Source: Verrucomicrobiota bacterium
GTDB taxonomy: Bacteria; Verrucomicrobiota; Verrucomicrobiia; Chthoniobacterales; UBA6821
Length of the DNA stretch: 58,319 nucleotides
Direction: 5' to 3'
NCBI GenBank assembly: GCA_021413925.1
Contig: JAIOPL010000019.1
Location: 1-58,319 of the forward strand
Of the stretch, positions 5,751-50,184 are shown in pieces. The notes beneath the pieces were generated by a model. That model was not told the origin of the DNA, did no database searches, and worked only from the letters and a program-made list of their open reading frames with translations. Position numbers and translations under genes: made by a program. Positions within the stretch are counted from its first letter, which is position 1. Every line of letters starts with the position of its first letter.

Positions 5751-5907
5751 AGATCGAACCTACTCTCAGAGAAGCCTCTAAGCTAGATGGGTAAATGCTT
5801 AGAAATGACTAATGTAATGGCTTAGGGATCTCATTCGGATCTCATCCTGCAAGCTAAGCGCTTCTACCAATAGGATTCGGTCAAGAGATGTGGGAGGGTT
5901 ACAATCT

Positions 5908-19137: not shown

Positions 19138-19160
19138 ACAACCCCTCCCCACTCCCAGCC

Positions 19161-20198: not shown

Positions 20199-20368
20199 TT
20201 TGGGAAAGTGGTGAAGCCTGAAAGCTGAAACCTGATTAGGAATTCAGAAAAATGAGAGCCTTGCGAAGAGGCTCGCAGAGACAAGGGGGTCTAGTTGTTT
20301 TGACTAGCCCTAGCTAAGACATACCCCATCTACCGGGTAGCAGATACGCGCCTTAGGATCGGCGCTAT

Positions 20369-23113
20369 ATGGAATGCCAGTGCCTATCCTATCATGTCTT
20401 TGCAAGCGTCTTGGTTGATTCCAGTCATTCCCGCACTTTTTTGCGGAATCTCGTTGTGCTTATCAGCCTGTTCCTACTTGTGATTGCACCATCGGCGAGC
20501 GCGACGACCTTTACATGGGATGGTAATGGTCCTAATGCAAACTGGAGTGCAACTGCGTCGGGTGGAAACCAGAACAATTGGACTGTGAAGAGATCCTTTC
20601 CAGGCAACAACAGCACCAACGATTATATTTTTGCAGGAACTCTAAACCTCAACAATACCAACGACTACACTAACCTCATCGCCACCAGCATTACCTTCAC
20701 CAATGGCGCGGGTGCTTTCATCCTCAACGGCAACAGCATCACGCTAGCCGGAGGCATCACGAACCTCTCGGCAAATCTACAGACCATCAATCTCGGGCTA
20801 ATTCTCTCTGGGAACGACATCGTCAACGCCTCGACCGCGAATATTCTTATCAGCTCCAAAGTCAGTGGCACCGGCACCCTCACTGCGGCAGGAGCTTCCA
20901 CACTCACCCTTTCGGCCTCCAACAGCTACTCCGGTGGTACAATCCTCAACGCCGGCACCCTCGCCATCAGCAACAACTACGCCCTTGGAACCGGTGCCCT
21001 CACCTTTGCGAGCAACAGCACGACGCTTCAGGCCCTGGCGAACCTTACCATCACTAACAACTACACGGTCGCCAACGGGGTGATCGGAAGTTTCAACATA
21101 GCCTTGGGTCTGACGCTTACCAACAGCGGTCTTATCAGCGGCGGCGGAACGATCCTGCTCACCAACGGAGGTACGCTTCTTCTCTCGGGATCGAACAGTT
21201 TCTTGTCGGATGCCAACATTGCCCAGGGCACTCTGACTATCGGGAACTCTTACGCCCTAGGCAGCACTAACAACGGCGTCTTTAACAATGGTACGCTGAA
21301 TCTCAACGGCTACTCCATCATCCTGGATGATGTTTACGGCTCCGGCACGATTACCAACTCCAGTACCACCCATAGCATCTTCACCATTGGTGTGAATAAC
21401 GGCTCAGGCACCTATACCGGTACGATCGCGGGAGGAAATGTAATCTCCCTTGTCAAGAACGGCACTGGCACCGAGATCCTCACTGCCTCCAATGCCTACA
21501 CGGGCGGAACCCACATCACTGCTGGTACAATCACGGTGGGCAACGCAAATGCTCTTGGAAACATCACTAACAACCTGACCAATAACGGGACGCTGAATCT
21601 GGCAGGCTTCTCCATCACCCAGGGTTCGCTAAGTGGAGCAGCTGGGATTGTGACCAACGGCATCGCGGGGAATGCGACTCTCACGGTTGGTGACAACAAC
21701 GCCTCGACCGCCTTTGCCGGATCACTGGTTGCCGGAACCGGAACCATTTCCCTCGTCAAGAACGGCACCGGCACCCTTACGCTCTCTGGAATCAATAGCT
21801 ACGAGGGGGGCACGTTGCTCAAAGGGGGAACTCTCAACATCAGCTCCGTCAACTCACTCGGTAAGGGCAGCCTTAGCATGAGCGGCATCGGCAAGACTAC
21901 CCTCGGCTACACTGGCGGATCTGCAACCTTCGCCAACACCATCAACGTCACCTCCGGCATAGGGTTGATCGACAACCTGAGCGGCAATGCCATGACACTC
22001 TCTGGTTCCTTGAACAACAGCGGCGGCACATTGGTACTGGCGAACGGCTCCTTCAACGTCAGCGGAAACATCTCCGGCTCCTCACTACTCTCCGACGTCT
22101 TTCTCTCTCACGCCAATGTTACTGTCTCGGGTGCGAACACCTACGCAGGGTCAACCGCGATCTTCAACGGATCAACCCTGAGTCTCGGCGTGGCGAACGC
22201 CATCCCGAGCAACACCATGGTGACGCTCGGTGCCTCTTCCGACCTTGGCTCCCAGATCAACAATCTGAATCTGAACGGTTACAACCAGAGCCTCACGGGC
22301 CTCACCAGCACGGGTAATGCTTACAACCAAGTGGTCAATACCAGCACCACCAACGCGATCTTGAGACTGAGCGGCACCTCCACCTTCAGCGGTTCACTGA
22401 ACGGAGGGAACCTCGGCCTCATGGTCGCCGGCGGCTCTGGCACGGTCACACTGACTGGCCGCAGCTCCTATACCGGAATCACGACCATCACCAGTGGCAC
22501 ACTTAACCTAAGTAGCACAGCGTTCCTCACGAACTCCTCCAGTGTGGTCGTTCAGAACGGCGGCACATTGCTCCTGAGCGGCTCCAATCAGGTGAATCCC
22601 AACGCAACCCTGACTCTCGGCGGCGGTGCACTCTCCATGGGTGGTAACGGCACTCTCGGCAATCGTGCCGCAGCCCAGACCTTCGCAAGCCTGACCCTAA
22701 CGGCCAACAGCTCTATCGATTTTGCGAATCTAAGTGGCATCTCAAAGCTGACATACGGGTCGATTACGATGGGACCCACCAATAAGCTGACCATCTTTAA
22801 CTGGAACGGAACCAGCCTATGGGGAACCACCTCGACGACAGGTGGAATTGGGCAATACACCCAGCTGATTGATTTCCTTGGATCCTCGGATTCCGGTGTA
22901 AACCTAGCCAACATCAGCTTCTATAGTGGGAATACAACTGGCAGCGGCTTCCTCGGCCACGGCGCTTTCTCAGGCACCCAGATCGTACCGGTACCCGAGC
23001 CCGGCGTGATCGCGTCAGCGGCTCTGCTCTCCGGTTGGATGCTCTGTTGGTTGTTCTTTGCCAACCGCGGAGTACTGATCAATCTGATCAATCGTCGTCC
23101 CTCCGCCTCATAA
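20369..23113 (+). CDS. Large PEP-CTERM protein with autotransporter-associated beta-strand repeats
   Basis: Secreted surface protein of 914 residues. After a signal peptide (hydrophobic NLVVLISLFLLVIAPSASA, residues ~27-45) it consists of repeated beta-strand units of the type GTGTLTLSGSNSYSGGTxLNxGTL (for example NGTGTLTLSGINSYEGGTLL and NGTGTEILTASNAYTGGTHI), which build a parallel beta-helix. It ends in a PEP-CTERM tail: VPEPGVIASAALLSGWMLCW, then a basic NRRPSAS. PEP-CTERM tails are processed by exosortases, none of which is in this window. Asn, Thr, Ser and Gly dominate. Likely an extracellular or exopolysaccharide-associated protein. Confidence 0.9.
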   Translation: MECQCLSYHVFASVLVDSSHSRTFLRNLVVLISLFLLVIAPSASATTFTWDGNGPNANWSATASGGNQNNWTVKRSFPGNNSTNDYIFAGTLNLNNTNDYTNLIATSITFTNGAGAFILNGNSITLAGGITNLSANLQTINLGLILSGNDIVNASTANILISSKVSGTGTLTAAGASTLTLSASNSYSGGTILNAGTLAISNNYALGTGALTFASNSTTLQALANLTITNNYTVANGVIGSFNIALGLTLTNSGLISGGGTILLTNGGTLLLSGSNSFLSDANIAQGTLTIGNSYALGSTNNGVFNNGTLNLNGYSIILDDVYGSGTITNSSTTHSIFTIGVNNGSGTYTGTIAGGNVISLVKNGTGTEILTASNAYTGGTHITAGTITVGNANALGNITNNLTNNGTLNLAGFSITQGSLSGAAGIVTNGIAGNATLTVGDNNASTAFAGSLVAGTGTISLVKNGTGTLTLSGINSYEGGTLLKGGTLNISSVNSLGKGSLSMSGIGKTTLGYTGGSATFANTINVTSGIGLIDNLSGNAMTLSGSLNNSGGTLVLANGSFNVSGNISGSSLLSDVFLSHANVTVSGANTYAGSTAIFNGSTLSLGVANAIPSNTMVTLGASSDLGSQINNLNLNGYNQSLTGLTSTGNAYNQVVNTSTTNAILRLSGTSTFSGSLNGGNLGLMVAGGSGTVTLTGRSSYTGITTITSGTLNLSSTAFLTNSSSVVVQNGGTLLLSGSNQVNPNATLTLGGGALSMGGNGTLGNRAAAQTFASLTLTANSSIDFANLSGISKLTYGSITMGPTNKLTIFNWNGTSLWGTTSTTGGIGQYTQLIDFLGSSDSGVNLANISFYSGNTTGSGFLGHGAFSGTQIVPVPEPGVIASAALLSGWMLCWLFFANRGVLINLINRRPSAS

Positions 23114-30743: not shown

Positions 30744-30816
30744 GGCGGTGTAGTCCAATGGCAGAGACAAGCGACTTAAAATCGCTCCAGTGTGGGTTCG
30801 AGTCCCACCACCGCTA
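30744..30816 (+). tRNA. tRNA-Leu(UAA)-like gene with short variable loop; contains attR
   Basis: A 73-base cloverleaf can be folded: acceptor GGCGGTG/CACCGCT with one G-U pair, D arm with GTC/GAC, anticodon stem AGCGA/TCGCT, loop CTTAAAA giving anticodon UAA, variable loop CCAGT, T arm GTGGG-TTCGAGT-CCCAC, discriminator A. The anticodon reads UUA (leucine) and A73 agrees with leucine, but the variable loop has only five bases whereas bacterial tRNA-Leu normally has a long variable arm. No CCA is encoded. Bases 30744-30781 are the attR repeat, so the 5' half of the gene comes from the element. Confidence 0.8.
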
Positions 30817-35412: not shown

Positions 35413-36258
35413 ATGAAGCCTGCATCACACAGCTCACTGAAGCCCTCCGGGGCTAGAGTGGCCATTGTTGACAGTCTGGCCAGTTGCAGGATCGGCCTTT
35501 CCAAACACATTCTCGCGAGCGGAAAGCTTCTGATCGCCTGGGCCAGCTCGACAGCCAGGGAAGGGTTGGAGAAGATAGAAGCAGACTCGCCTGACATCCT
35601 CATTGTGGAGATCCAGTTGACGGGGCAGGACGGGCTCGAGTTCATCAAGAACCTTCGCCCCCTATACCCGACCATCAAGATTCTCGTTCATTCGTCACTG
35701 AACGAGGACTTCTACGCCCGACGATGCCTCCAGGCTGGAGCCATGGGTTTCCTGCACAAGACCGAACCGATGGGACTCCTCCTGCCTGCGCTGGAAACAA
35801 TCCTCCGCGGTGAGGTCTACCTCAGCACTCGCGTTGCGAGTTCAGCGCTTCTCTCCCTCACACCGGGTCATCAAGGAATGAACAACGATGCTCATCGCCA
35901 ACTCACTGACCGAGAGCTTGAGATCATCATGCTCATGGCGCAGGGAGATTCCTGTCAGGACACTTCGAGCAAGCTTCAGATAAGCCCCCGGACCGTGCAG
36001 GTACACCGCACCAACATAAGGCAAAAACTTTGCTTGGATTCGGCTGCCAGGCTCCATGCCTATGCCGTCCGTTTCTACGGGGATGGCCTGAACTTTGATC
36101 CAACCCCCGTCGTGAGTGCCGCTGACGAGGGCAAACTGGTCCCCAAAGAAGCTCTGCCAACATCACTTCCCAAACCACCTCCAAAGACATCCCTCACGAA
36201 AACACGGCGACCCATCTCCAAGAAACAATCCGGGAGATCTTCACAAAAAACCCGCTGA
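35413..36258 (+). CDS. LuxR/NarL-type regulator with Glu at the phospho-acceptor site (1)
   Basis: DNA-binding response regulator of 281 residues. The receiver (residues ~15-135) shows RVAIVDSLASCRIG and DILIVEIQLTGQDGLEF: where a normal receiver has Asp at the end of strand 3 there is Glu (E66), and the first acidic pair is reduced to D-S. The conserved Lys (FLHKTEP) remains. A LuxR helix-turn-helix follows (LTDRELEIIMLMAQGDSCQD ... SPRTVQVHRTNIRQKL). The C-terminus is a Lys/Pro/Ser-rich tail. Asp-to-Glu can mimic the phosphorylated state, so it may be constitutively active. One base separates it from its paralogue. Confidence 0.88.
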   Translation: MKPASHSSLKPSGARVAIVDSLASCRIGLSKHILASGKLLIAWASSTAREGLEKIEADSPDILIVEIQLTGQDGLEFIKNLRPLYPTIKILVHSSLNEDFYARRCLQAGAMGFLHKTEPMGLLLPALETILRGEVYLSTRVASSALLSLTPGHQGMNNDAHRQLTDRELEIIMLMAQGDSCQDTSSKLQISPRTVQVHRTNIRQKLCLDSAARLHAYAVRFYGDGLNFDPTPVVSAADEGKLVPKEALPTSLPKPPPKTSLTKTRRPISKKQSGRSSQKTR

Positions 36259-36259
36259 C

Positions 36260-37144
36260 ATGAGCACGAAAGCAACAACCATCCCTCCAAGAAAAAGAAT
36301 GGCGTCGGTTTGTACCAAGCCTCGGATTGCTATTGTTGATAGCCAGCCCTCCAGTCGCATCGGCCTTTCCCATTTCATCAAGAAGATCGGCCTCTGGGAG
36401 ATAGCCTGGGCCAGTGCGACCGCAGAGGAGGCCTTGACTAAAATAGCCGAGGCGCAGCCGGACCTTATGATCCTGGAAATCCAGCTTCCCGGCAAAGACG
36501 GACTTGAACTTATCAAGCACCTGATGCCTCTTTATCCGCAGCTGAAGGTTCTTGTTCATTCAGCTCATGTTGAGGAATTTTACGCGGAGCGTTGCCTGCG
36601 GGCGGGAGCCATGGGGTACCTCCATAAGATGGATCCCATGGGGAATTTCGAGAACGCCGTGAAGACAGTCCTGCGTGGAGAGTTCTATCTCAATCCGCGC
36701 CTGACGCGTCATTCACTTCATTCGATGGTCCATCATGCCAACAACATGAAGGGTAACGATAATAACCTTCATAATCTCACCGATCGGGAACTTGAGGTCA
36801 TGATCTTGATGGCCAAGGGACACTCCTGCCGGGACAGTGCGGAAAAGTTCCATATCAGCCCCAGGACAGTTCAGGTGCACCGTAACAATATCCGATTGAA
36901 GATCGGCCTGGAGAGCGCGGTGGCACTCCATGCGTACTCCGTGCGTTTCTACGGAGAGGATTCCCTTTCTCACAGTCAAGACGACGGGTTAGTACGGTCG
37001 ACGCCGGAGATGGCAACAGCAGTTGCCGATTTCGTGCCCAAGAAACACTCGAAGGGAAATGGGGAAACCCCCATGAAACCTAAGAACGGTTCGGGCAAGA
37101 CTGGTTCTCGTCGTGATGTCACAAAAGCCTCCCCTCGCACTTGA
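36260..37144 (+). CDS. LuxR/NarL-type regulator with Glu at the phospho-acceptor site (2)
   Basis: Tandem paralogue of 294 residues, starting one base after the preceding stop. The receiver reads RIAIVDSQPSSRIGLS and LMILEIQLPGKDGLEL, again with Glu (E73) at the phosphorylation position, and keeps the Lys of YLHKMDP. The LuxR HTH is LTDRELEVMILMAKGHSCRD ... SPRTVQVHRNNIRLKIGL. The C-terminal ~50 residues are basic and repetitive. Both copies share the substitution, so it predates the duplication or is selected. They probably regulate genes nearby, such as the polysaccharide cluster or the PEP-CTERM genes. Confidence 0.88.
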   Translation: MSTKATTIPPRKRMASVCTKPRIAIVDSQPSSRIGLSHFIKKIGLWEIAWASATAEEALTKIAEAQPDLMILEIQLPGKDGLELIKHLMPLYPQLKVLVHSAHVEEFYAERCLRAGAMGYLHKMDPMGNFENAVKTVLRGEFYLNPRLTRHSLHSMVHHANNMKGNDNNLHNLTDRELEVMILMAKGHSCRDSAEKFHISPRTVQVHRNNIRLKIGLESAVALHAYSVRFYGEDSLSHSQDDGLVRSTPEMATAVADFVPKKHSKGNGETPMKPKNGSGKTGSRRDVTKASPRT

Positions 37145-37178
37145 GCTGACGCGGACGCTGATATCGAAGCGGAAGTTG

Positions 37179-37197
37179 TCTAAGCATTCTGCTTAGT
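37179..37197 (+). promoter_or_regulatory. CTAAGCA-TTC-TGCTTAG inverted repeat before the polysaccharide cluster
   Basis: Perfect 7-bp inverted repeat with a three-base centre, overlapping the spacer of a weak promoter-like pair (TTGTCT at 37176, GATATA at 37200). It has the form of an operator at the promoter of the following operon; it could instead be a short transcript-end hairpin for the regulators. Confidence 0.4.
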
Positions 37198-37256
37198 AAG
37201 ATATAAGCATTACAGCAGCTATCGGTAGTGTGGGATCCGATGCAAGATGGCAGGCG

Positions 37257-37856
37257 ATGAATCATCCATCTTCCTCGAATGCCATTACTCTCCGGAAAAT
37301 CCGGAGACTACGGAATCATCATCTGTCGCCGGAATCACCGGTGAATCATCAAAGCCCGCGATCCGAAGAACCTCCCTATCCCAAGGGTTACGAAATCAGG
37401 ATCATCTGCATCTATCCCTCGGTCGACGCCGGAAAACTTGGCAAGAAATGGATCGAGACGGCTTTCCGAGAGATGGCCCCACTCTCCAGCACGAGCGTCG
37501 AGTATTTCAACATCGCGGTCCTCAACCACGATGGGATCAGCTGGGAGCACATCGTGGAGCGGGTCATGCCTGACATCATCCTCATGGTAAGCGACGGCAA
37601 TCACATGCTCAGCTCCGGCCTGAGGCACTCGCTGAGCGAACTCCTCTCTCTCCAGAATGGAGGGAAGAAGCCAATGGTCATCTTCCGGGATCTTGAGCCC
37701 CTCCCCACGCTCAATACCCGCACCATTCTCGACTATGTCTCCGTGCTCAGTGACAGGAATCACTGTGAGTTCAATGCCGTGAACGGGGACGGCGATTCCA
37801 TCAGCTGCTTCCGACACCCAAGACTTTTTCTCAAGGGGCGGAAACGCACCGAATAA
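37257..37856 (+). CDS. Unknown protein at the head of the polysaccharide cluster
   Basis: About 199 residues from the ATG at 37257 (a GTG at 37230 is possible). The first ~45 residues are basic and disordered-looking; the rest alternates strands and helices: YEIRIICIYPSVDAGKLGKK, PDIILMVSDGNHMLSSGLRH, MVIFRDLEPLPTLNTRTILD. This could be a Rossmann-like or degenerate receiver fold, but no family is recognised. It precedes the epimerase by 21 bp and probably belongs to the operon. Confidence 0.5.
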   Translation: MNHPSSSNAITLRKIRRLRNHHLSPESPVNHQSPRSEEPPYPKGYEIRIICIYPSVDAGKLGKKWIETAFREMAPLSSTSVEYFNIAVLNHDGISWEHIVERVMPDIILMVSDGNHMLSSGLRHSLSELLSLQNGGKKPMVIFRDLEPLPTLNTRTILDYVSVLSDRNHCEFNAVNGDGDSISCFRHPRLFLKGRKRTE

Positions 37857-37877: not shown

Positions 37878-38879
37878 TTGAATATCCTCATCACTGGCGG
37901 TGCCGGATTCATCGGAACCCACCTAGCGGAATATCACCTTGCAAAAGGTGATTCGGTTGTAGCCCTGGATGACCTGAGCACGGGGTCTGAGGAGGTATTC
38001 AATAGCCTCCACTGCAGGGACAGCGGAGGGAACTTTCATTTAGAGAAGGGGGATATCCTTACCTGGCCAGATCTTGAGTCCGAGATAGCACGTTCCGATC
38101 GTATCTATCACATGGCCGCCGTGGTCGGGATGTTCCGCGTGTTGAAAGAACCCGTCGAGGTGACCCGCGTGAATGTCCTCGGCACGGAGAGACTCCTGGA
38201 GTGCATCGCCCGTTGCGGAAATCTTCCCGAACTCGTCATTGCCTCCAGTTCCTCCGTCTACGGCCACTCCCATGAGGCTGTTCTCAGCGAGGGAATCGAG
38301 CTGGTCTACGCTCCCGAAAAGGGCGGACTCACCGCCTATGCGCTCAGTAAACTGACAAATGAAATTCAGGCTATGGCCTACCGGGAGATCCACGCCCTGC
38401 CGGTCTCGATCCCACGTCTCTTCAATGCCGTAGGCCCCAGACAGTCAGGCAACTACGGCTTTGTCCTGCCTAGGTTTATTAGTCAGGCCCTCTCGGGAGA
38501 ACCTCTCACCGTCTTTGGCGATGGGACCCAGACGCGGTCCTTCTGCGATGTGCGGGACACGGTGGCCGCCATCGACATCCTCGCCGGAATGCCCGAGTCC
38601 TGGGGTCGCGCTGTGAATGTCGGCAACCCGAGGGAGATCTCGATTCTTGATCTCGCACGCATGGTGATCGAGCGCTCCGGCAGCCTCTCTCCTATCGAAT
38701 TTGTCTCCTTTGAGAAGGGCTATGGAAGCAACTTCTGGCAGGTCACTCAGAGACGCCCCTCCATTGATCTCCTGCAAAAACTCACTTCATTCCAGCATAT
38801 CTGGACACTCGAAAAAACCATCGACGACCTGATCGAACGCAACCGCACGGCCCTCGTCCCCGGAGGAAGACTTCTATGA
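37878..38879 (+). CDS. NAD-dependent sugar epimerase/dehydratase (extended SDR)
   Basis: Extended short-chain dehydrogenase of 333 residues starting at TTG. The NAD-binding motif is ILITGGAGFIGTHLAE, the active-site pair is the S-S-S of IASSSSVYGHS and Tyr-x3-Lys in TAYALSKLTNE, and substrate residues include FNAVGPRQSGNYGFVLP. Such enzymes epimerise UDP-sugars such as UDP-Glc, UDP-GlcNAc or their uronic acids. With the UDP-N-acetylhexosamine-type dehydrogenase downstream it could make a uronic acid precursor, as in TviB/TviC-like pairs. Its stop overlaps the next gene's start (ATGA). Confidence 0.88.
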   Translation: MNILITGGAGFIGTHLAEYHLAKGDSVVALDDLSTGSEEVFNSLHCRDSGGNFHLEKGDILTWPDLESEIARSDRIYHMAAVVGMFRVLKEPVEVTRVNVLGTERLLECIARCGNLPELVIASSSSVYGHSHEAVLSEGIELVYAPEKGGLTAYALSKLTNEIQAMAYREIHALPVSIPRLFNAVGPRQSGNYGFVLPRFISQALSGEPLTVFGDGTQTRSFCDVRDTVAAIDILAGMPESWGRAVNVGNPREISILDLARMVIERSGSLSPIEFVSFEKGYGSNFWQVTQRRPSIDLLQKLTSFQHIWTLEKTIDDLIERNRTALVPGGRLL

Positions 38880-40162
38880 CAACCACACCTCCACATCGAA
38901 TTCAATCTATTCGCCCGTTATTCGCTCATCTCCTGCTCATGACGTTGCTGATGACACTACCCGTGGGACTGCATGGAGAGGGTAACACACCACTCTGGAG
39001 TGTCGGGCAGACCCTCCCCATGGAGGAACATTACCCGGGCGGAAATCTGAGCACGTACCAACAGGGCCAACTAGCCGAGGGACAGCAGCAGATTCTCCAG
39101 GCTCGCGAAGATTACCGTAAGGCGCTTGCAAGCAATCCCGAACAGAAGGACCTCCGAGAGCACTATGCCTGGTTCCTCTACGCCAACGGCTACCACGATA
39201 AGGAATGCCTTCGCCTGCTCGAGCAGTCTCTTCCCGATGCCGCCGATCCGACCGGGATCTTCAATGCCATCGTCGAAGTGAGGGAAGAACTCCGCCTGCC
39301 CGCCACCCCTCTCAGAAAGCCTCCGGGTGTACTCCAGAAAAAAGCTGTGACACCACATCACGCTGTCATTGCCAAGGCCTCCAGCGGTGAATCCTTGAAG
39401 AAGGTCGTGAAGGAGGAGATCGAAACAGTCGAGAGGTTCCACCACTGGATCTTCGTCACTTACTACGATTACAGCTTCTTCAACGATGGTCGTCAGGGAT
39501 GGCAGGAGGAAGATGCCTCCCTCATCTACCGAGTCAACCAGCGCCTGGCGATCGGCGCCGAGATCGACATCATGCAGCGCCCCCCCTCGGGAACGAACAC
39601 CTACTATAGCGCTCTGGCCTCCTACTACCTCTGGAAATGGCTCGAGGTTCACGGAAAGATCTCCATCTGTCCCGATCCAACCTTCCTTGCACTGCAGGTC
39701 TACTCAGGAGGATTCATCTACCAGGCCGCTCCACGCCTCGGACTCCTGCTCGACTACCAGCGTTACAACTTTATCCAGGGACCCCTCGACCAGATCAATC
39801 CCGGCATCGCGTATAACTTCACGGATACAACCTCACTGGTGCTGCGTTATGTCCGCGGATGGGCCTTCAACAATCTCGAGTATAACTACTACTCGGCAGC
39901 TCTGAATCTTGGTCTGCCCGGTAACCGTAGGCTCTCGATGGCTTTTGCCTATGGTACGGATCCTGATACCCAAGTCGGGGCTGACGGCAGCAATCTCAGT
40001 AGCCTCAGTCCCGCCTACACCTATTCCATCTTCTTCACCCAGCCTATCACGCGCGATCTGAGCCTCTTCACCGGCGTCCAATACATCTACCGCCTCACGC
40101 AGAACAACTCCCCGCTATACCAGCAACTCACACCGACAATAGGCCTTTCGATGAAATTCTAA
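38876..40162 (+). CDS. YaiO-like outer-membrane beta-barrel protein with TPR-type N-terminus
   Basis: Exported protein of 428 residues. After a signal peptide (hydrophobic LFAHLLLMTLLMTLPVGLHG) comes a helical segment with TPR character (AEGQQQILQAREDYRKALAS, REHYAWFLYANGYHDKE). The C-terminal ~240 residues are a beta-barrel of alternating aromatic strands (WIFVTYYDYSFFND, ASLIYRVNQRLAIGAEIDIM, GIAYNFTDTTSLVLRYVRGW) ending in the outer-membrane terminal Phe (LTPTIGLSMKF). This matches YaiO-type barrels found with polysaccharide synthases. It probably forms the export path, or binds the polymer at the outer membrane. Confidence 0.8.
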   Translation: MTTTPPHRIQSIRPLFAHLLLMTLLMTLPVGLHGEGNTPLWSVGQTLPMEEHYPGGNLSTYQQGQLAEGQQQILQAREDYRKALASNPEQKDLREHYAWFLYANGYHDKECLRLLEQSLPDAADPTGIFNAIVEVREELRLPATPLRKPPGVLQKKAVTPHHAVIAKASSGESLKKVVKEEIETVERFHHWIFVTYYDYSFFNDGRQGWQEEDASLIYRVNQRLAIGAEIDIMQRPPSGTNTYYSALASYYLWKWLEVHGKISICPDPTFLALQVYSGGFIYQAAPRLGLLLDYQRYNFIQGPLDQINPGIAYNFTDTTSLVLRYVRGWAFNNLEYNYYSAALNLGLPGNRRLSMAFAYGTDPDTQVGADGSNLSSLSPAYTYSIFFTQPITRDLSLFTGVQYIYRLTQNNSPLYQQLTPTIGLSMKF

Positions 40163-40166
40163 TCCC

Positions 40167-41249
40167 ATGAACCTCCTCACCATTGTTCTCATTACTGCGG
40201 CCATTCTGACACTCCTCAGTCTACTCCTGCTTGTTATTACCATCGTCCTGAGAATAGCGACGGACCGGAGATTGCGCCGTGATACCGAGTTCAGAAAGAA
40301 AGCGAAACCGATTCTTCAATCCTTTCTCTCCGGGGAGGCCTCACTCGAGGCTGCAAAAGCCGCTCTGGCGTATGAGCCGCACGGAGCCATCCAACTTCTT
40401 CTGGAAGAGTCTGATGCGCTCGGGACGGAGGGACGTAAAAAACTCCTTCCTCTGCTTGCCTTGATGCCCTTCGAGAAAAAAATGATGACTCACATCACCA
40501 GTAGGCGTTGGGAAAAGAGGCTCAGGTCTGCGGAATATCTCGGTTACCTGGGCGATGACTCCGCACTACCGGCGCTGATGACGGCACTCCGTGACGATGT
40601 ACTTGCAGTTCGATTCGCAGCAGCAAACTCGCTTGCACGTCTTGGATGTCAGGATGCCGTCGAGCCGATTCTCAAGGCACTCGATGTTCCCGGAGAAGTC
40701 TCCCAGAGGAGGGTTGTCGAGGTTCTCCAGATCCTCGGGCCCGCCGCCAGCGATCAGATCCTTACCATCCTGAATGATTCCTCTGGGAACCAAACATCCC
40801 TGGCTATCGCGGCCCGCATAGCAGGATCACTCCGGATCGAGAATTCCATAAAATCCCTATGCGGACTGCTACGGCATGAAAATGCAAATATCCGCATCAA
40901 TGTCCTCCGATCCCTCGCTTCCATCAATGATCACTCCGTGACCGACCAGATCGCCGCCCTGGGCGAGGATCCCTCCTGGGAAGTCCGCAGCAGCGTGATG
41001 CTGGCCCTGGGCAGACTTGGCGCCACTCAACAGATTCCCCTCCTTCTACAGGGCCTCTCTGATCGGGAATGGTGGGTCCGATTCAACGCCGCAGAAGCCC
41101 TCTATTCTCTCGGGGATCCTGGGATCGCAGCACTCAAAGAAGCCGTCGATCACCATGTCGATGCGTACGGACGCGACATGGCACGCCAGATTCTTCAGGA
41201 ACACGGCATCATCCAATCAAACGAGGAAACCAAGGAGATAAATTCATGA
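40167..41249 (+). CDS. Membrane-anchored HEAT-repeat protein
   Basis: Protein of 360 residues with one N-terminal membrane span (TIVLITAAILTLLSLLLLVI) and a cytoplasmic domain of about seven HEAT repeats (for example DDSALPALMTALRDDVLAVR, ASINDHSVTDQIAALGEDPS, WEVRSSVMLALGRLGATQQI). HEAT solenoids are protein-binding scaffolds. Position between the outer-membrane barrel and the GT2 synthase, with its stop overlapping the synthase ATG (ATGA), strongly suggests that it organises the inner-membrane synthase complex. No enzymatic motif is present. Confidence 0.85.
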   Translation: MNLLTIVLITAAILTLLSLLLLVITIVLRIATDRRLRRDTEFRKKAKPILQSFLSGEASLEAAKAALAYEPHGAIQLLLEESDALGTEGRKKLLPLLALMPFEKKMMTHITSRRWEKRLRSAEYLGYLGDDSALPALMTALRDDVLAVRFAAANSLARLGCQDAVEPILKALDVPGEVSQRRVVEVLQILGPAASDQILTILNDSSGNQTSLAIAARIAGSLRIENSIKSLCGLLRHENANIRINVLRSLASINDHSVTDQIAALGEDPSWEVRSSVMLALGRLGATQQIPLLLQGLSDREWWVRFNAAEALYSLGDPGIAALKEAVDHHVDAYGRDMARQILQEHGIIQSNEETKEINS

Positions 41250-42640
41250 ACACCATACGCATCCTTCTCTGGATCATCCTCGGTTATTATATCGCCCTCC
41301 ACGCGATCTACCTCCTGCTTCTGCTACTCGGATCGCTTCAGATCAGACGTTATAATAGGGCTATCACCTTCGCCGAGTTCCGTAGGATCGGCGAATCACG
41401 GCTTACCATGCCGGTGTCACTGATCATTCCATGTTATAACGAGGCCACGATCATCTGCTCCACCATCCTAAATGTCCTCAGGCTCATCTACCCTCAGTTC
41501 GAGGTTATTGTTGTCAGCGATGGTTCCAAGGATAACACGATGGAGATCCTTACCGAGAAATTTAAACTCCGCCGCATCGAGAGATTCGGACGCCGTTTTA
41601 TCAGCACAAAGCCTATCCTCGGCGTCTATGAGTCCTCTGAGTATCCGAATCTTGTCGTGGTAGAGAAGAACAACGGGCGCCGGGCTGATGCCATCAATGC
41701 CGGCGTCGCCATGGCTCATTACCCTCTTCTTTGCGTCATCGATGCGGACTGCGTCCTCGAGAGCGATGCGCTTCTTCACATGGCGCGCCCCTTCCTTCGT
41801 GATTCGAGGGTGGGAGCCGTGGCGGGAGTCGTCAGGCCCTCGAATGGACTGAGCGTCGTGGAGGGCGAGATCGTCGCCAAGGGATTCCCCAAGACCTTTC
41901 TTGGAATGAATCAGGAGATCGAATATGCCCGCAGCTTCCAGTGGGCCAGAATCGGACTCTCACGACTGCGAAGCATGCTCTGCATCTCCGGTGCTCTGAT
42001 CCTCGTCAAGAAGACCCTGTTCGAGAAACTCGGCGGCCCGTGGCCTGATGCCATCACCGATGACATCGAGTTCACGATGCGACTGAACAGGCACGTCCAC
42101 GATCGCAGGAACAAGGAGGATGCCCGGATGGTCTTTGCCCCCGATGCAATCTGCTACACAGAGATCCCTGAGAAGATCGGACAGTATGCCTCCCAGCGGA
42201 ACCGCTGGCAGCGGGGTACACTGCAGGCTATATGGCGCAATCGGGGAATGATCTTCAATCCCCGCTACAGTGCTACTGGGCTCTTCGGAATGCCCTACTT
42301 TCTGCTCTTCGAGGGACTTTCGGGCATCGTGGAGCTCTCTGCATGGATTCTGATGGTTGTTTGTCTGGTCCTGCGAATCGCCACCGGCTTCGAGATCGTC
42401 GCCATGCTCTTCCTGGCCTACATTATGGGGGTCTTCCTTTCGCTGTCAGCCGTGCTTCTCACCGAGGCTAGCCGCCTGCGCAGTGCAAGATGGCGTGAAT
42501 TCTGGCGCCTGATCCTGGCGATCTTCCTCGACAACCTGGGGCCTCATCAATTTCACCTGCTCTGTCGCGTGATTGGAACAATCCAATTTCTCCTAGGAAG
42601 GCACGACCTCGGTAGGCCGATGGAACGCAATGGCGCCTAG
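41246..42640 (+). CDS. Processive family 2 glycosyltransferase (polysaccharide synthase)
   Basis: Inner-membrane GT2 enzyme of 464 residues from the ATG at 41246. It has one N-terminal span, then the catalytic domain: SLIIPCYNEATII, VVSDGSKDN, CVIDADCVLE, the TDDIEF motif and QRNRWQRG (QxxRW), all hallmarks of processive synthases such as PgaC, HasA and BcsA-like proteins. Three or four further helices follow. It would polymerise a nucleotide-activated sugar and extrude the chain. Substrate specificity is not readable, but the adjacent UDP-N-acetylhexosamine-type dehydrogenase hints at an amino-sugar or uronic acid polymer. No PilZ domain is seen in it. Confidence 0.9.
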   Translation: MNTIRILLWIILGYYIALHAIYLLLLLLGSLQIRRYNRAITFAEFRRIGESRLTMPVSLIIPCYNEATIICSTILNVLRLIYPQFEVIVVSDGSKDNTMEILTEKFKLRRIERFGRRFISTKPILGVYESSEYPNLVVVEKNNGRRADAINAGVAMAHYPLLCVIDADCVLESDALLHMARPFLRDSRVGAVAGVVRPSNGLSVVEGEIVAKGFPKTFLGMNQEIEYARSFQWARIGLSRLRSMLCISGALILVKKTLFEKLGGPWPDAITDDIEFTMRLNRHVHDRRNKEDARMVFAPDAICYTEIPEKIGQYASQRNRWQRGTLQAIWRNRGMIFNPRYSATGLFGMPYFLLFEGLSGIVELSAWILMVVCLVLRIATGFEIVAMLFLAYIMGVFLSLSAVLLTEASRLRSARWREFWRLILAIFLDNLGPHQFHLLCRVIGTIQFLLGRHDLGRPMERNGA

Positions 42641-42675
42641 AGCACATCAACTAAACCCATCCCGCCTACAGAGTC

Positions 42676-43980
42676 GTGATCCCTAAACCCGCAGATTCCC
42701 TACATGAAGTTGCCGTTGTCGGTCTCGGTTATGTCGGCATTCCACTTGCAGTTGGCTTTGCCGAGGCCGGATGCCGCACCTTGGGATTCGACCTTGATCA
42801 AGAGCGTGTGCGTGAACTTCAGTCCGGTCACTCCCCACTGACCACGGTCCCGGCCGAAAGGATCAATGCAGTTACCGGAAAACAGCTCCTCACCTTTACA
42901 GTGAACAAGGAGGACCTTGCCCGCAGTGAAGCAATCATCATCTGCGTTCCCACCCCCCTCCGCACGCACCTCGATCCTGACATCACATTCATCCTCTCGG
43001 CTGGTGAGGAGATCGCTCCAGTTCTCAGGAAAGGCATGCTGGTCTCCCTGGAATCCAGCACCTATCCCGGAACAACCCGTGAGGATCTTCGCAAGGGTCT
43101 GGAGGAGAAATCAGGGCTCAAGGCAGGTGTTGACTTCGCCCTTGCCTTCTCCCCCGAGCGTGAGGATCCGGGCAATGAGAAGAGTGTTCTCAAGCAGATG
43201 CCCAAGGTTGTCGGGGGACTCACTCCTGCATGCCTTGAGCGAGCCGTGGAACTCTACTCGCACGCCGTCAGCAATGTCGTCCCCGTCAGCAATTGCGACA
43301 CCGCCGAGGCAGTCAAGCTCACGGAGAATATTTTCCGCTTTATCAATATCGCCCTCGTGAACGAGCTCAAGCGCATCTACACCCCCATGGGAATCGATAT
43401 CTGGGAGGTCATCGAAGCAGCGAAGACCAAGCCATTCGGATTCATGCCTTTCTATCCCGGCCCCGGTGTTGGCGGGCACTGCATCCCGCTTGATCCCTAC
43501 TACCTCACATGGAAGGCCCGTGAGTTCAATCTCGACACGCGCTTCATCCAGCTTGCGGGTCAGATCAACCGCGGAATGCCCTTCTATGTAGTCAGTCACC
43601 TGGTGGAGGGACTCAATACACTTTCCCTGCCGATTCAGGGCGTTCGGATCCTGATCCTTGGTCTATCCTACAAACCGAATATCCCAGATGACCGAGAGTC
43701 ACCCTCTTACGTGATCATGAATATCCTCAAGGAGAAGGGGGCTGAAGTAGACTTCTATGATCCTTTCATCCCAGTCATCGAAAAGCATGCCGGTCCTCAA
43801 TGGGCAGGACGTCACTCCATCGATTGGAATCCAGAAACACTAAATAGCTACACTGCTGCTGTCGTCTGCACTCCTCACAGAGGAGTCGATTATTCCCAAC
43901 TCGCCGAGCATATCCCCCTCATCGTCGACGCATGCAATATCGTCCCCAAGAACAGCAAAGCCCGCGTCATCCCCGCCTAG
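42676..43980 (+). CDS. Nucleotide-sugar dehydrogenase, UDP-N-acetylhexosamine type (WecC/TviB/WbpA-like)
   Basis: NAD-dependent four-electron dehydrogenase of 434 residues, GTG start. The N-terminal Rossmann fold is VAVVGLGYVGIPLAVGFAEA; the catalytic Cys lies in GPGVGGHCIPLDPYYLTWKA, the form typical of enzymes that oxidise UDP-N-acetyl sugars rather than UDP-glucose (which show GGSCFPKD). The C-terminal domain begins ILGLSYKPNIPDDRESPS. It supplies a UDP-N-acetylhexosaminuronate for the synthase upstream. The gene ends just before a GCAGAGGCGC-type repeat and a truncated GxxExxY gene. Confidence 0.88.
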   Translation: MIPKPADSLHEVAVVGLGYVGIPLAVGFAEAGCRTLGFDLDQERVRELQSGHSPLTTVPAERINAVTGKQLLTFTVNKEDLARSEAIIICVPTPLRTHLDPDITFILSAGEEIAPVLRKGMLVSLESSTYPGTTREDLRKGLEEKSGLKAGVDFALAFSPEREDPGNEKSVLKQMPKVVGGLTPACLERAVELYSHAVSNVVPVSNCDTAEAVKLTENIFRFINIALVNELKRIYTPMGIDIWEVIEAAKTKPFGFMPFYPGPGVGGHCIPLDPYYLTWKAREFNLDTRFIQLAGQINRGMPFYVVSHLVEGLNTLSLPIQGVRILILGLSYKPNIPDDRESPSYVIMNILKEKGAEVDFYDPFIPVIEKHAGPQWAGRHSIDWNPETLNSYTAAVVCTPHRGVDYSQLAEHIPLIVDACNIVPKNSKARVIPA

Positions 43981-44037
43981 CAGGGAAACGGGGAATCGAC
44001 TCGCGCGGAGGCGCAGAGGCGCGGAGGTTTTAGAGAT

Positions 44038-44208
44038 ATGAATAAAAACGAGATTGGCACACGGGTTATTGAAGCTGCGATCAGTGTCCATCGGGAACTT
44101 GGCCCAGGCCTCTTGGAGAGCGTTTACGAAGTCGTCCTGTCTCGAGAGTTAGCTAATCATGGATTGAAATCCGAGAGGCAAATCCCCGGCACCTTAGAAC
44201 GAGGATGA
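44038..44208 (+). pseudogene. Truncated GxxExxY-family protein
   Basis: Reads MNKNEIGTRVIEAAISVHRE then LGPGLLESVYEVVLSRELAN and stops at codon 57. It contains the family's namesake motif G-L-L-E-S-V-Y. Intact members are about 120-130 residues, so the second half is missing; the reading frame leaves the family after SERQIP and meets a stop. It is directly preceded by a GCGCAGAGGCGCGGAGG repeat. Its end overlaps the start of the GH16 gene by four bases, suggesting that a deletion fused the two regions. Confidence 0.8.
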
Positions 44209-45119
44209 GAAAGAGTTTTTGTTATAAAATAAAAAAACCTCCCGATAAATATTCGCGCCTCTGCGATTGCTTGCCCGGCCTCGGCCTATTGGCCTGCGTT
44301 ACGGCAGCGGGAAAACATTTATCCGGATTCCTCCTATTCCTACTTATGAGTTTATCTTCACTCATGGCGGGGGAATATTTCGAGGGGTTTGATAACCCCG
44401 GGAAGCCCCCTGAGCGTGATGGTATCCACTGGGGATACACTGACGAACTGACTCCCGTGGCCGGATGGAAATCCATTATTCCCGGTGACGGCTTCGCCCA
44501 TCTTTCAGTCACGAGTCATTCGCTCGCGAAGAAAATCAAACACCTCCCTGACGGAAGTGACTTCCTCCCCTTCCAGACACTTTCCCTGGGGCCCATTGGA
44601 AGTAATCACCGGATCAGCATCCGGGCGAAGAACATGGCCATCCCCGGTGTCGCCTGCGTCCTCTTCACCTATCGTGAAAAAACCAAGGTGGATGAAATTG
44701 ATATCGAGGTCACTCCGGACGACACCCAGTCAGCCGAGACAGGACACATGACCGGCACGAACGGCGGGTGGACCGATGTCCGGCTCAATACCTGGGCCAA
44801 TGCCAGGGAGAGTAAGAATGGCGACGCCTCACTCCTGCCGATGCGGAGCATTCGTGCGCCGATCATCGACTCCAACGGGGAAAAGGTCTCCCACCGCGAT
44901 GACAAGTTTCATATCTACACGATCGAGTGGCGCATCGGGAGTGTCCTGTTCTTCATCGACGGGGTTGAGCAGGCCTGTATCGATGACGTGGTTCCCGACT
45001 ATCCCTCCACAGTCATCTTCGGGATGCGACGCATGCCGTGGTCAGGCAAAGCAGATTGGTCTGGTGAGCAAACCCTGCTAGTCGACTGGATCGACATCGA
45101 ATCACTGAACAAGGAGTGA
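44205..45119 (+). CDS. Secreted glycoside hydrolase family 16-like protein
   Basis: Beta-sandwich (concanavalin-like) enzyme. The GH16 catalytic motif E-x-D-x-E is present as DEIDIEVTPDD near residue 165, with supporting strands (FHIYTIEWRIGSVLFFIDGV). The mature part starts after a signal region FLLFLLMSLSSLMA. The true start is unsure: from ATG 44205 there are ~30 extra residues translated from repeat-like sequence; a TTG at 44289 gives a more normal signal peptide. GH16 enzymes cut beta-1,3/1,4-glucans, galactans and related polymers. As last gene of the polysaccharide cluster it may trim or release the polymer. Confidence 0.82.
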   Translation: MRKSFCYKIKKPPDKYSRLCDCLPGLGLLACVTAAGKHLSGFLLFLLMSLSSLMAGEYFEGFDNPGKPPERDGIHWGYTDELTPVAGWKSIIPGDGFAHLSVTSHSLAKKIKHLPDGSDFLPFQTLSLGPIGSNHRISIRAKNMAIPGVACVLFTYREKTKVDEIDIEVTPDDTQSAETGHMTGTNGGWTDVRLNTWANARESKNGDASLLPMRSIRAPIIDSNGEKVSHRDDKFHIYTIEWRIGSVLFFIDGVEQACIDDVVPDYPSTVIFGMRRMPWSGKADWSGEQTLLVDWIDIESLNKE

Positions 45120-45508
45120 TGAATCTCCCGCGCAGAGGTGCGGAGAATGAAGACCGAGATCTCCCGCAGAGACGCAGAGGCGCAGAGAGGGAAAGTGAAA
45201 AGGACTGAGAGTGGAGCACTATTCCTCACCTTCCTGAATTCCACATTCATCATCCCTTTTATCCCCTTCATCCCTGTGAAGTCTTCTCCGCGCCTCTGCG
45301 CCTCAGCGGGAGTTATTCCTAAGCTTCCTTAGTTCCACATTCATCATCCCTTCTATCCCCTTCATCCCTGTGAATCCTTCTCCCCTCTCTGCGCCTCTGC
45401 GGGATAATTCATTCAGCCCCCTATTCCATCCCCCTCTCCCGCAAACATAAGTAATTGACTTAGATGACACTGATCGTGCGATCCGACAGGCACGCTTACA
45501 TTTAAGTT
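45120..45508. repeat. Gene-free 389 bp made of composite dispersed repeats
   Basis: Two 42-bp direct repeats differing at one base lie at 45239-45280 and 45333-45374 (start TTCCACATTCATCATCCCTT, end CTTCATCCCTGTGAA). Each is followed by an inverted GCGCCTCTGCG copy (about 45286-45311 and 45385-45404). Two further copies in the opposite orientation lie at about 45125-45144 and 45161-45190. The promoter of the GAF-GGDEF-EAL operon must be in the last ~80 bp, which contain TTGACT followed by AT-rich sequence. Confidence 0.8.
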
Positions 45509-48004
45509 GTGAGTGCATCCGTCCCAGAAAATACCACGGCTACCCCACCTCACGAACAGACGGTCCCATCAGTTCCACTACCCCACGATCAGCAGGTCCC
45601 CATGCGGCGCAGCACCGATCAGGCTCTGATGCCACACGTGTCATCCCATGCACCGATTCATCCCCATGAGGAGGAACGCATGGCCCGGTTACTAGGCTAC
45701 GACATCCTCGATACCGAGAACGATGTGATCCTGGACCAACTTACCGCGATGGCTGCCCGGATCACGGGATCCCCGATCGCTCTCATCTCACTGATTGACC
45801 GTGATCGACAGTGGCTGAAGTCCCACTACGGCCTCGACGTTGAGGAAACCACACGGGACGACGCCTTCTGCGCCCACACGATTATGGAAGCGGATAAGGT
45901 GATGCTCATCACGGATGCCCGGAAGGACGCGCGCTTTGTCTTCAATCCCTTTGTCACGGGTGAGCCACATATCCGCTTCTATGCGGGTGTTCCTCTTCAT
46001 AATGGGGACAAGCTCGCGATCGGTAGCCTGTGTGTCATCGACCGGAAAGCGAAGGAACTCTCCGAGGAGCAGATCAATTCACTGAAGGTTATAGCCCGGA
46101 TTGTCATGGATTACCTCGATGTCTATCGCTCCAACCGACATCTCACGCATCTTCTGCTGAAGGAAAAGCAAATCTATAACCGTCTTCTGAGCATGTCCTC
46201 AGAGATGACCTCACTATCGATTTCCCTGGACGATGCCCTCCAGAACATCCTGAACAATCTCGATTCCTCACTCGGTTGGCTCTCATGTCGGATCAATAAC
46301 CTCACGACGCATGAACTACCCGATATCCGGATGAATCCCAGCCTTCCCGAAGACCCTCAGATTGACTCGATTTGGAAGAAGATTGATTCTCAGTCGCCGA
46401 AGGTCCTTCGTGAGATGCAGAAGACGGCATTCATCTCCAGCAATGTCACGGGTCCTGAGTATGCCTACCTGGTGGTTCCAGTCAGAAACCGTGGCAAGCT
46501 GGTGGCTAGGATTGAAATGATCTATCCGGATCACCGCAAAGCGGACGCGCGGATCAAGGAAGTCTTCGACATCATGGCGGTCACTCTAGGGATCGTCGCG
46601 GAGAGGGAGCTTGCCACCATGGAGCTCAAGTATCGGGCCAACCACGATGCCCTTACCGGGGCGATCAACAGGACCCTCTTCCTGGAAGAGCTTCAGAAAG
46701 GCATCTCGGAGGCCAAGTGCAGTCACCCCGACGCGGTTCTTCTCTTCCTCGATCTGGATGGATTCAAGGAGGTGAATGATAACTTCGGACACCAGATCGG
46801 AGACCGCCTTCTCGTCGAAGTCACGGAACGCCTTCGGAGCCTCAGTCGCGAAAAGGACATTCTCGGGCGCCTGAGTGGCGATGAATTTGTCCTCCTGGTA
46901 CGCCATCTCGATATCAGCGAGGACCTGGAACCTCTTCTCAAACGGATTCAGAGGCATATCTCCCAGCCCTTCATGCTCGGAGATCTGGAAATCCGGATCA
47001 CCAGCAGCATCGGGGCCGCGATCCTGGACCGTAACGACCTAACCACACCGGAACTCCTCCGCCGTGCCGAGGAGTCCATGTACCTCGTCAAGAATGGGGA
47101 ACGCAAGGGCTACTGCATCGCCAACGAGCAGATCATCAAGGAGTTCAAGGATCGCCTCGATCTCGATCACAACATCCATCAAGCCGTCTATGAGAAACGG
47201 CTCCTTCTCCAGTTTCAGCCCATCATGGATCTCCGTACGGGAGAGATCTCCTCCGCGGAGGCCCTACTACGGGTATTGAACAAGGATGGCACCATCATGA
47301 ATGCCTACGATTTCATCCCTTCGCTGGAGCGTAGTCGCCTCATGACTGAGGTCGATGACTGGGTAGTCGCCGAGGCCATCCGGATCGTGCAGCAACATCT
47401 GGTCAAGCTGCCGGCGATTCCCGGATTCCGCCTCTCGCTCAATGTGAGTCCAGCAATCCTCATGACTCACGGATATGCTCTCTTCACACTCAATCGCCTG
47501 AAGACAGCGAACATACCCCCGGGGATACTGCGCATCGAGATCATCGAGGATCACCTGGACACGAGTAATGCATCACTCATGGAAAACCTCAACCTGTTAC
47601 GGGAAGCGGGCGTGAGTATTGCGATCGATGACTTCGGGACAGGCTACAGCAACCTTCAGCACCTGACCTCCATACCGTTCGACACGCTCAAGATCGACCG
47701 TGCTTTCCTGAAGGGAATCCTGCCGCAGAACACTAAGGATAAAGAGCTTCTGGCCGCCATCGTCGCTCTGGGGGGAACCCTCGGCTACTCGCTTGTCGCC
47801 GAGGGAATCGAGAATCAGGAACAGGCCGACTACCTTGTCTCCATCGGGTGCCATCACGGACAGGGATATCTCTATGCAAAACCGATGCCGATCGAAGGCC
47901 TTATCGAGTTCATGGTGAATCATTCCCCCCATGTCCTAGCCCTGACCATACCTGACACACCGTCACCTCCCCTTCTCCGGCACCCTCAATTATCCAATCA
48001 CTGA
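45509..48004 (+). CDS. GAF-GGDEF-EAL protein (cyclic-di-GMP turnover)
   Basis: Cytoplasmic signalling protein of 831 residues, GTG start (an ATG at 45602 is an alternative). Residues ~57-215 form a GAF domain (MARLLGYDILDTENDVIL, FYAGVPLHNGDKLAIGSLCV). A less clear sensor region follows, then GGDEF (~380-545) with an SGDEF active site near residue 456, compatible with diguanylate cyclase activity. The EAL domain (~555-810) keeps EALL, SLNVSP, EIIEDH, DDFGTGYSNL, LKIDRAF, VAEGIEN and the QGYLYAKP loop, so phosphodiesterase activity is likely. It opens the operon and is 20 bp upstream of kaiC. Confidence 0.92.
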   Translation: MSASVPENTTATPPHEQTVPSVPLPHDQQVPMRRSTDQALMPHVSSHAPIHPHEEERMARLLGYDILDTENDVILDQLTAMAARITGSPIALISLIDRDRQWLKSHYGLDVEETTRDDAFCAHTIMEADKVMLITDARKDARFVFNPFVTGEPHIRFYAGVPLHNGDKLAIGSLCVIDRKAKELSEEQINSLKVIARIVMDYLDVYRSNRHLTHLLLKEKQIYNRLLSMSSEMTSLSISLDDALQNILNNLDSSLGWLSCRINNLTTHELPDIRMNPSLPEDPQIDSIWKKIDSQSPKVLREMQKTAFISSNVTGPEYAYLVVPVRNRGKLVARIEMIYPDHRKADARIKEVFDIMAVTLGIVAERELATMELKYRANHDALTGAINRTLFLEELQKGISEAKCSHPDAVLLFLDLDGFKEVNDNFGHQIGDRLLVEVTERLRSLSREKDILGRLSGDEFVLLVRHLDISEDLEPLLKRIQRHISQPFMLGDLEIRITSSIGAAILDRNDLTTPELLRRAEESMYLVKNGERKGYCIANEQIIKEFKDRLDLDHNIHQAVYEKRLLLQFQPIMDLRTGEISSAEALLRVLNKDGTIMNAYDFIPSLERSRLMTEVDDWVVAEAIRIVQQHLVKLPAIPGFRLSLNVSPAILMTHGYALFTLNRLKTANIPPGILRIEIIEDHLDTSNASLMENLNLLREAGVSIAIDDFGTGYSNLQHLTSIPFDTLKIDRAFLKGILPQNTKDKELLAAIVALGGTLGYSLVAEGIENQEQADYLVSIGCHHGQGYLYAKPMPIEGLIEFMVNHSPHVLALTIPDTPSPPLLRHPQLSNH

Positions 48005-49815: not shown

Positions 49816-49834
49816 AGAATCTCCGGACGCCACA

Positions 49835-49864
49835 GCAACAACCGTGAAAGCAACAACCGTGAAA
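49835..49864. repeat. 15-bp tandem repeat GCAACAACCGTGAAA x2
   Basis: Two near-perfect consecutive 15-mers at the 5' end of the first kaiB, each containing a GTG. It duplicates a possible start codon and encodes ATTVK-ATTVK. Confidence 0.7.
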
Positions 49865-50164: not shown

Positions 50165-50184
50165 GTTTATAAGGAGAGGCGCGC

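Follow-up and report, generated by a model that had tools for sequence, protein, structure and literature searches.

Two NarL-type regulators with pseudo-receivers and a candidate operator shared across a genus of uncultured lake Verrucomicrobiota

A promoter element between RR2 and ORF3

The DNA analyzed here, referred to as the window, is a stretch of 58,319 nucleotides from a 2.4-Mb draft genome whose relatives are uncultured lake Spartobacteria/Chthoniobacterales. The principal result is a promoter element located in the gap between a response regulator gene, RR2, and the gene that follows it, ORF3. The element recurs throughout the genus and apparently marks an undescribed and sharply defined regulon. 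A first-pass annotation had drawn attention to tandem LuxR-type paralogs at positions 35413-37144 and both proteins, RR1 and RR2, were found there; as pseudo-receivers they are by themselves an ordinary observation of a known kind, and the element is the larger result. The best reading of the data, to which we assign a probability of roughly 60%, is that RR2, together with RR1, is a phosphorylation-independent activator of an envelope/exopolysaccharide regulon. The features discussed below are collected in Table 1.

Table 1. Positions of the regulators, element copies, and associated genes in the window
Feature	Position	Strand	Basis
Second element copy with -10, 5' of the 57-aa lipoprotein gene	5755..5825	-	Pattern and profile searches
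Third element copy	20291..20361	+	Found with a profile built without it
914-aa PATR-repeat surface protein with C-terminal PEP-CTERM signal (VPVPEPG...)	20369..23113	+	Target of the third copy
RR1, NarL/FixJ type; receiver residues DS / E / S / K (pseudo-receiver)	35413..36258	+	Pfam, alignment, tree
RR2, NarL/FixJ type; receiver residues DS / E / S / K (pseudo-receiver)	36260..37144	+	Pfam, alignment, tree, AlphaFold model
Upstream activator element (putative)	37180..37224	+	RR2-ORF3 gap comparison, pattern/profile searches
-10-like hexamer CAAGAT (consensus TAnnTT)	37243..37248	+	18 bp past the element; 29-copy profile
ORF3, 199 aa, candidate genus-specific partner of RR2, element target	37257..37856	+	Profile searches, predicted fold
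Exopolysaccharide-type cluster 3' of ORF3	37878..45119	+	Database matches; conserved order
Inverted repeat TAAG-N7-CTTAG alone	45448..45463	+	46 bp 5' of the GGDEF/EAL gene (45509-48004)

RR1 and RR2 are NarL/FixJ-type regulators

RR1 (281 aa) and RR2 (294 aa) are complete proteins in which an N-terminal receiver (PF00072, Response_reg) is joined to a C-terminal GerE helix-turn-helix (PF00196), with both domains well over the Pfam gathering cut-off, and this is the architecture of the NarL/FixJ family. The nearest solved structures are VraR, LiaR, NarL, EvgA, and RcsB, and the AlphaFold model of RR2 is of the NarL/RcsB/VraR type. RR2 begins with an ATG 1 bp past the RR1 stop codon; a GTG at 36116 was rejected as the start because the longer frame merely overlaps RR1. 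Orthologs of RR2, with 60-78% identity, are present in 12 of the 16 genomes of the genus, and its paralog RR1 is found in only two (the window genome and G006 (L042)). In the window genome, which contains only eight receiver domains over the cut-off, no GerE protein other than RR1 and RR2 passes the cut-off, and RR2 is the sole GerE protein in five or more other genomes of the genus. No kinase gene adjoins the pair; a PAS histidine kinase is encoded 13 kb away and is adjoined by response regulators of its own. Genes for KaiC, KaiB, a PAS histidine kinase, a lone receiver, and a receiver-GGDEF-EAL protein are clustered at 48025-55347.

The receivers have lost the phosphotransfer residues but are maintained

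Alignment to NarL reads D-S ... V[E]IQL ... S ... FLHK for RR1 and D-S ... L[E]IQL ... S ... YLHK for RR2. In CheY numbering, both proteins retain DD1 (D12), K109, and the Y-T coupling aromatic (Y/F at K-3); T87 is Ser, D57 is Glu, and DD2 (D13), a direct Mg2+ ligand (PMC12632262), is Ser. The alignment therefore bears out what the first-pass annotation had read from the letters, namely Glu in place of the phospho-Asp in both paralogs, an acidic pair of Asp-Ser, and a kept Lys. The annotation had also named a different Asp at the site as the observation that would overturn this reading. No other Asp aligns there, and phosphorylation on a neighboring Asp was discarded on that ground.

The first-pass annotation pointed to homologs as the check on the Glu. 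Glu occupies the phospho-Asp site in 11 of the 12 genus sequences that are readable there (10 RR2 and two RR1), and none of the 12 has an acidic residue at DD2, which is S, A, or G. Each of the 18 closest NarL relatives in the order carries Asp at the phospho-site and an acidic pair of DD or ED. The RR2 of L038/G007 (L038 7879-8721) naturally carries Asp instead of Glu, with Gly at DD2. A maximum-likelihood tree that included the 18 relatives gave a fully supported RR1+RR2 clade on a long stem, and the Asp variant is nested within this clade beside Glu-bearing sequences. Judged from these sequences, Glu is ancestral to the clade, and the simplest reading of the Asp variant inside it is a reversion via one base change. 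Both changes follow known trends, as DD2 is the residue most often lost in pseudo-receivers (PMC4395418, PMC12632262) and Glu is the commonest replacement in receivers without the Asp (26%, PMC4395418).

Among RR2 orthologs, the receiver has a dN of ∼0.05-0.10 compared to a dS of ∼0.8-2.7. Because dN is far under dS, the receiver is being maintained and is not decaying. The receiver is constrained about equally to the HTH, from which it follows that RR1 and RR2 are working pseudo-receivers (PsR/ALR); the C-terminal tail is unconstrained. The RR2 receiver thus shows both characteristics of an ALR, which are missing phosphotransfer residues and a functional domain under purifying selection. Given the loss of these residues, RR1 and RR2 would use no His-Asp phosphotransfer and are almost certainly free of control by ordinary His-Asp phosphorylation. 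The earlier suggestion that they may respond to something other than phosphorylation is supported by the loss of both the phospho-Asp and DD2.

The first-pass annotation also proposed that, because Glu can mimic phospho-Asp, the regulators may be locked on. In a fuller form of this proposal, Glu would stand in for phospho-Asp by way of the kept Ser/Thr, Lys, and Tyr/Phe and would itself be what holds the regulators in the on state. The prevalence of Glu in the clade and its rank among Asp replacements, the retention of T/S, K, and the K-3 Y/F in all cases, and the reported phosphomimetic capacity of Glu (PMC12632262) are consistent with this proposal. However, the Glu-to-Asp exchange that the annotation suggested exists naturally in L038/G007, which retains ORF3 and two element copies, and Glu itself is therefore not indispensable. 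In addition, ChxR still binds DNA when its Glu is exchanged for Asp or Ala (PMC4395418), and the Pro at D+4 is replaced in many clade members. The Asp variant and ChxR weaken the proposed lock to the point that Glu as the cause of regulator activity is doubtful, and we hold it as a tentative alternative.

Anatomy of the element

The inverted repeat near 37.18 kb, which the first-pass annotation had flagged for DNA-binding tests, proved on sequence comparison to belong to a real, genus-wide regulatory element. The repeat, CTAAGCA-TTC-TGCTTAG (37180-37196), is followed by a third half-site, TAAGC (37204-37208), and by a AGCTATCG block over the -35 region (37216-37224). The consensus of the element is TAAG-N7-CTTAG-N7-TAAGC-N7-CATCTATCG, located 18 bp 5' of a sigma70-like -10, and a profile of 29 copies reads CTAAG n7 CTTAG n7 TAAGC n7 CATCTATCG n18 TAnnTT. 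The -10 hexamer was outside the search pattern that gathered these copies, and in the profile 26 of the 29 hexamers have A at -11 (second position) and 26 of the 29 have T at -7 (sixth position). The second and sixth positions are the two strongest of a sigma70 -10. Counted from the -10, the inverted repeat is centered at ∼-67, TAAGC is at ∼-49, and CATCTATCG lies over the -35 region, a geometry that, as read from the sequence, is that of a promoter dependent on an activator.

The start codon of ORF3 and of the lipoprotein genes, ATG, is 6-9 nt 3' of the -10, so these mRNAs would be leaderless or nearly so; the Hsp20 and CxxC genes have leaders of ∼80-95 nt. An RNA hairpin, terminator, or riboswitch was considered for the inverted repeat and rejected, as Rfam has no match at the repeat and a shared RNA fold among five element copies was no better than in shuffles. 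No element is present upstream of RR1 and RR2 themselves. A GTTAAC palindrome recurs shortly 5' of RR start codons (window ∼35383, L033-L037, and L042) and is also found 5' of the GGDEF/EAL gene in L036 and L040; it is possibly another promoter/operator motif.

Distribution of the element

The search pattern, 43 bp with 15 fixed bases, was derived from the 11 RR2-ORF3 gaps that hold conserved DNA. Allowing at most one mismatch, it gave 31 matches in 14 of the 16 genus genomes and its reverse gave none. Across 210 genomes of the order, the exact pattern gave 25 matches compared to four for the reversed pattern; all 25 are in the genus (13 of the 16 genomes), and the 194 order genomes outside the genus have no exact match. 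A sequence profile found 37 sites, spread over 14 of the 16 genus genomes; the two without a site are G010 and G015. The two genomes with both RR1 and RR2 are the richest in sites (6 and 5, versus 1-3 in genomes with RR2 as the single regulator). The signal requires the full element, as a palindrome-only pattern with three mismatches was not above chance. A pattern with TAAG-N8-CTTA spacing found nothing beyond its control.

Targets of the element

A genome-wide profile search of the window genome returned six sites that pass E 0.01, and the corresponding targets are ORF3, two small lipoproteins, a PATR/PEP-CTERM protein, an Hsp20, and a CxxC protein. Three of the six sites are in the window, which is 2.4% of the genome, and the chance of finding two of the other five there is ∼0.006. 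The lipoprotein gene behind the second copy spans ∼5577-5750, with its ATG ∼7 nt past the -10. The third copy scored 35, versus 7.4 for the best of 30 Markov sequences, and, with a later model into which it had been incorporated, has a genome-wide E of 9.6e-9. Thr-rich lipoprotein families of 57-61 aa stand under the element (5577-5750; G000:C4 ∼1740) with the ATG ∼7 nt past the -10, a distance that suggests leaderless mRNAs.

Across the genus, many copies precede unrelated genes, which encode 57-61-aa lipoproteins, Hsp20, a 98-aa secreted CxxC protein, and a PEP-CTERM protein. G006 and G011 have the element 5' of PEP-CTERM proteins of 579 and 587 aa, and G006 has a weak element 5' of an outer-membrane-like protein. 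The Hsp20 gene is present in five genomes; it is preceded by the element in G000, G006, and G009, and the element is missing in G010 and G015. The earlier idea that the PEP-CTERM leaders might be targets has to be divided: it does not apply to the neighboring PEP-CTERM genes at 30987, 32695, and 34072, none of which has an element before it, and it does apply to the distant PATR/PEP-CTERM gene at 20369.

A partial form of the element is associated with a GGDEF/EAL gene. An exact TAAG-N7-CTTA is present 5' of this gene in all five species examined (window, L098, L040, L036, and L037), where ∼0.004 would be expected per gene, and the other element parts are missing at the sites in L098, L040, L036, and L037.

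ORF3 and the exopolysaccharide cluster

ORF3 adjoins RR2 in ten genus loci. Its profile detects a homolog in 14 of the 16 genus genomes and none in 197 genomes from elsewhere in the order, no homolog outside the genus was found in a 387-genome sample of the phylum, and Pfam, NCBIfam, and PADLOC have no match. The protein is predicted to adopt a receiver/flavodoxin-like alpha/beta fold, although the model is of modest confidence (pLDDT 66); a name based on the fold matches (azoreductases, flavodoxins, and receivers; Z ∼8) was rejected as too generic. The presence of ORF3 accords with that of the element in 14/14 genomes.

The cluster 3' of ORF3 encodes an NDP-sugar epimerase, a TPR/beta-barrel-like protein, a HEAT protein, a PgaC-like glycosyltransferase, an NDP-sugar dehydrogenase, and a glucanase-like protein, and the order after ORF3 is conserved in L031, L032, L036, L037, G006, and G011. 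In other species cydAB, tRNA-Leu(TAA), RR2, and ORF3 are contiguous. In the window these landmarks (17599-20198, 30744-30816, and 35413-37856) are spread over ∼15 kb, with the PATR/PEP-CTERM gene following cydB and further genes, PEP-CTERM genes among them, lying between the landmarks.

RR2 as the candidate binder

RR2 is adjacent to the element and was never found without it in any genome. In G010 and G015, ORF3, the element, and any close RR2 are jointly missing, and the cydB gene has no tRNA-Leu and RR2 after it. The adjacency and the joint absence make RR2 the probable binder. The Hsp20 gene, which lacks the element in precisely these two genomes, and the high site counts of the genomes with RR1 and RR2 point the same way. 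The recognition helix, which is identical across all RR2, matches the fixed operator.

A somewhat unlikely alternative is that some other transcription factor binds the element, itself real, and that RR2 is linked to the element only through gene order and common descent. As the 16 genomes are related by descent, the co-occurrence amounts to few independent events. The element and ORF3 are present in G009 and G011, where neither RR2 nor another GerE protein over the cut-off was found, so that ORF3 rather than RR2 matches the element throughout; in G006, the element is kept before ORF3 while RR1-RR2 sit on another contig. However, the RR2 absences coincide with assembly breaks or a missing neighbor. 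The contigs of G011 end 222 bp before the ORF3 element and ∼270 bp after tRNA-Leu, with no RR2 coding in either stretch, and the G009 assembly also lacks cydB, the usual neighbor, and has different genes upstream of ORF3. The missing RR2 is thus probably, though not certainly, the result of assembly gaps. Moreover, the operator has the TAAG...CTTA form known from a NarL-family pair, and many of these genomes have no GerE protein other than RR2.

It is quite improbable that the element is instead the promoter of an alternative sigma factor, with CATCTATCG as the -35, TAnnTT as the -10, and the TAAG repeats as accessory sites. CATCTATCG is highly conserved and is spaced from the -10 as a -35 would be, and the targets include a heat-shock gene. 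TAAG-N7-CTTA also occurs without CATCTATCG before the GGDEF/EAL gene, and hence the two parts of the element are separable. On the other hand, A-11 and T-7 are the strongest positions of the -10, which is the pattern of ordinary sigma70 promoters, and the three TAAG half-sites are conserved equally to the -35 block, which a sigma factor alone cannot explain. Finally, it is scarcely credible that an orphan kinase phosphorylates RR1/RR2, whether on Glu or at another site, for although the pocket Lys and Ser/Thr are kept and the PAS histidine kinase is nearby, DD2 is missing in every member including the Asp variant and that kinase has its own response regulators alongside.

Proposed mechanism and significance

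Returning to RR2 as a phosphorylation-independent activator, we propose that the receivers became pseudo-receivers, with loss of DD2 and replacement of the phospho-Asp by Glu, before the genus-wide clade diversified. RR2 would be constitutively able to dimerize and, in the two species with RR1, could form a heterodimer. It would bind TAAG-N7-CTTA at ∼-67, with a further half-site (TAAGC) at ∼-49 and the conserved block over the -35 region, and would activate sigma70 promoters that have a good -10 but a poor -35. The sequences themselves show the pseudo-receiver and its conservation, as well as the element with its positions and co-occurrence; from these we infer the binding by RR2, activation over repression, the role of ORF3, and the signal. 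The predicted regulon comprises ORF3 and the exopolysaccharide cluster, the GGDEF/EAL enzyme, small lipoproteins, PATR/PEP-CTERM proteins, Hsp20, and the CxxC protein. By analogy to other pseudo-receivers (PMC12632262), control is probably exerted via abundance or a partner. Output would then depend on how much RR1/RR2 is present or on a partner. ORF3 is the best candidate for such a partner and could provide feedback; this is a conjecture that draws on ORF3 being co-inherited and itself under the element. A bolder version, in which the phosphorylation-dead NarL-type regulator and ORF3, a receiver-like, genus-specific partner under that operator that would sense the signal instead of a kinase, together run the whole envelope/exopolysaccharide regulon with many leaderless or near-leaderless mRNAs, is unlikely in this full form.

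How pseudo-receivers are switched on and off has been described as unsolved (PMC12632262). The clade is a clean case for this question: the genome is small, RR1 and RR2 are its sole LuxR-type regulators above the cut-off, and there is a candidate operator with a defined promoter geometry and at least six target promoters in the window genome. G010 and G015 are natural members without regulator, partner, and element, and G007 is a natural Asp variant that keeps the regulon. For an uncultured lake lineage, the findings also predict which exopolysaccharide genes, surface proteins, and lipoproteins are regulated together.

Comparison with known systems

Like the ALR regulators ChxR, HP1043, RedZ, WhiI, and BldM, RR1 and RR2 retain a fold under selection though the phospho-Asp and DD2 are lost, and they are likewise orphans without an adjacent partner kinase gene; ChxR has Glu at the same site. 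Unlike the known ALRs, RR1 and RR2 combine the change with a NarL-type output in freshwater Verrucomicrobiota, the whole clade including the tandem paralogs is changed, and the regulators are tied to one genus-specific operator and to a candidate genus-specific partner, ORF3.

VpsT and CsgD, biofilm regulators whose receivers are degenerate, resemble RR1/RR2 in having a LuxR-type output, an unusual receiver, exopolysaccharide targets, and c-di-GMP enzymes nearby, and VpsT (3kln) matches the profile in its C-terminal half. RR1 and RR2 differ in that their Glu-bearing pocket with the kept Lys is of the canonical kind. What we take to be the region of the VpsT/CsgD c-di-GMP motif reads YLNPR/YLSTR in RR1/RR2.

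BldM and WhiI of Streptomyces are atypical NarL-type regulators that heterodimerize (PMC4125116). The likeness to RR1/RR2 is that of two atypical NarL-type regulators and a palindromic operator; RR1 and RR2 differ in being adjacent paralogs with a different regulon, and a heterodimer between them is putative.

With respect to the operator, the RcsAB box, TAAGAAT-ATTCTTA, is bound by the NarL-family pair RcsB/RcsA (PMC4381331, PMC5829831). As we read them, both systems feature a NarL-family dimer, a TAAG...CTTA repeat, and an envelope/exopolysaccharide regulon, and RcsB is among the folds nearest to RR2. RcsB is phosphorylatable, as RR2 is predicted not to be, and the RcsAB operator is TAAG-N6-CTTA, with 6 bp between TAAG and CTTA; the element has 7 bp (TAAG-N7-CTTAG), adds a half-site and a conserved -35 block, and is therefore similar only. 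The likeness of the element to the RcsAB box may be convergent.
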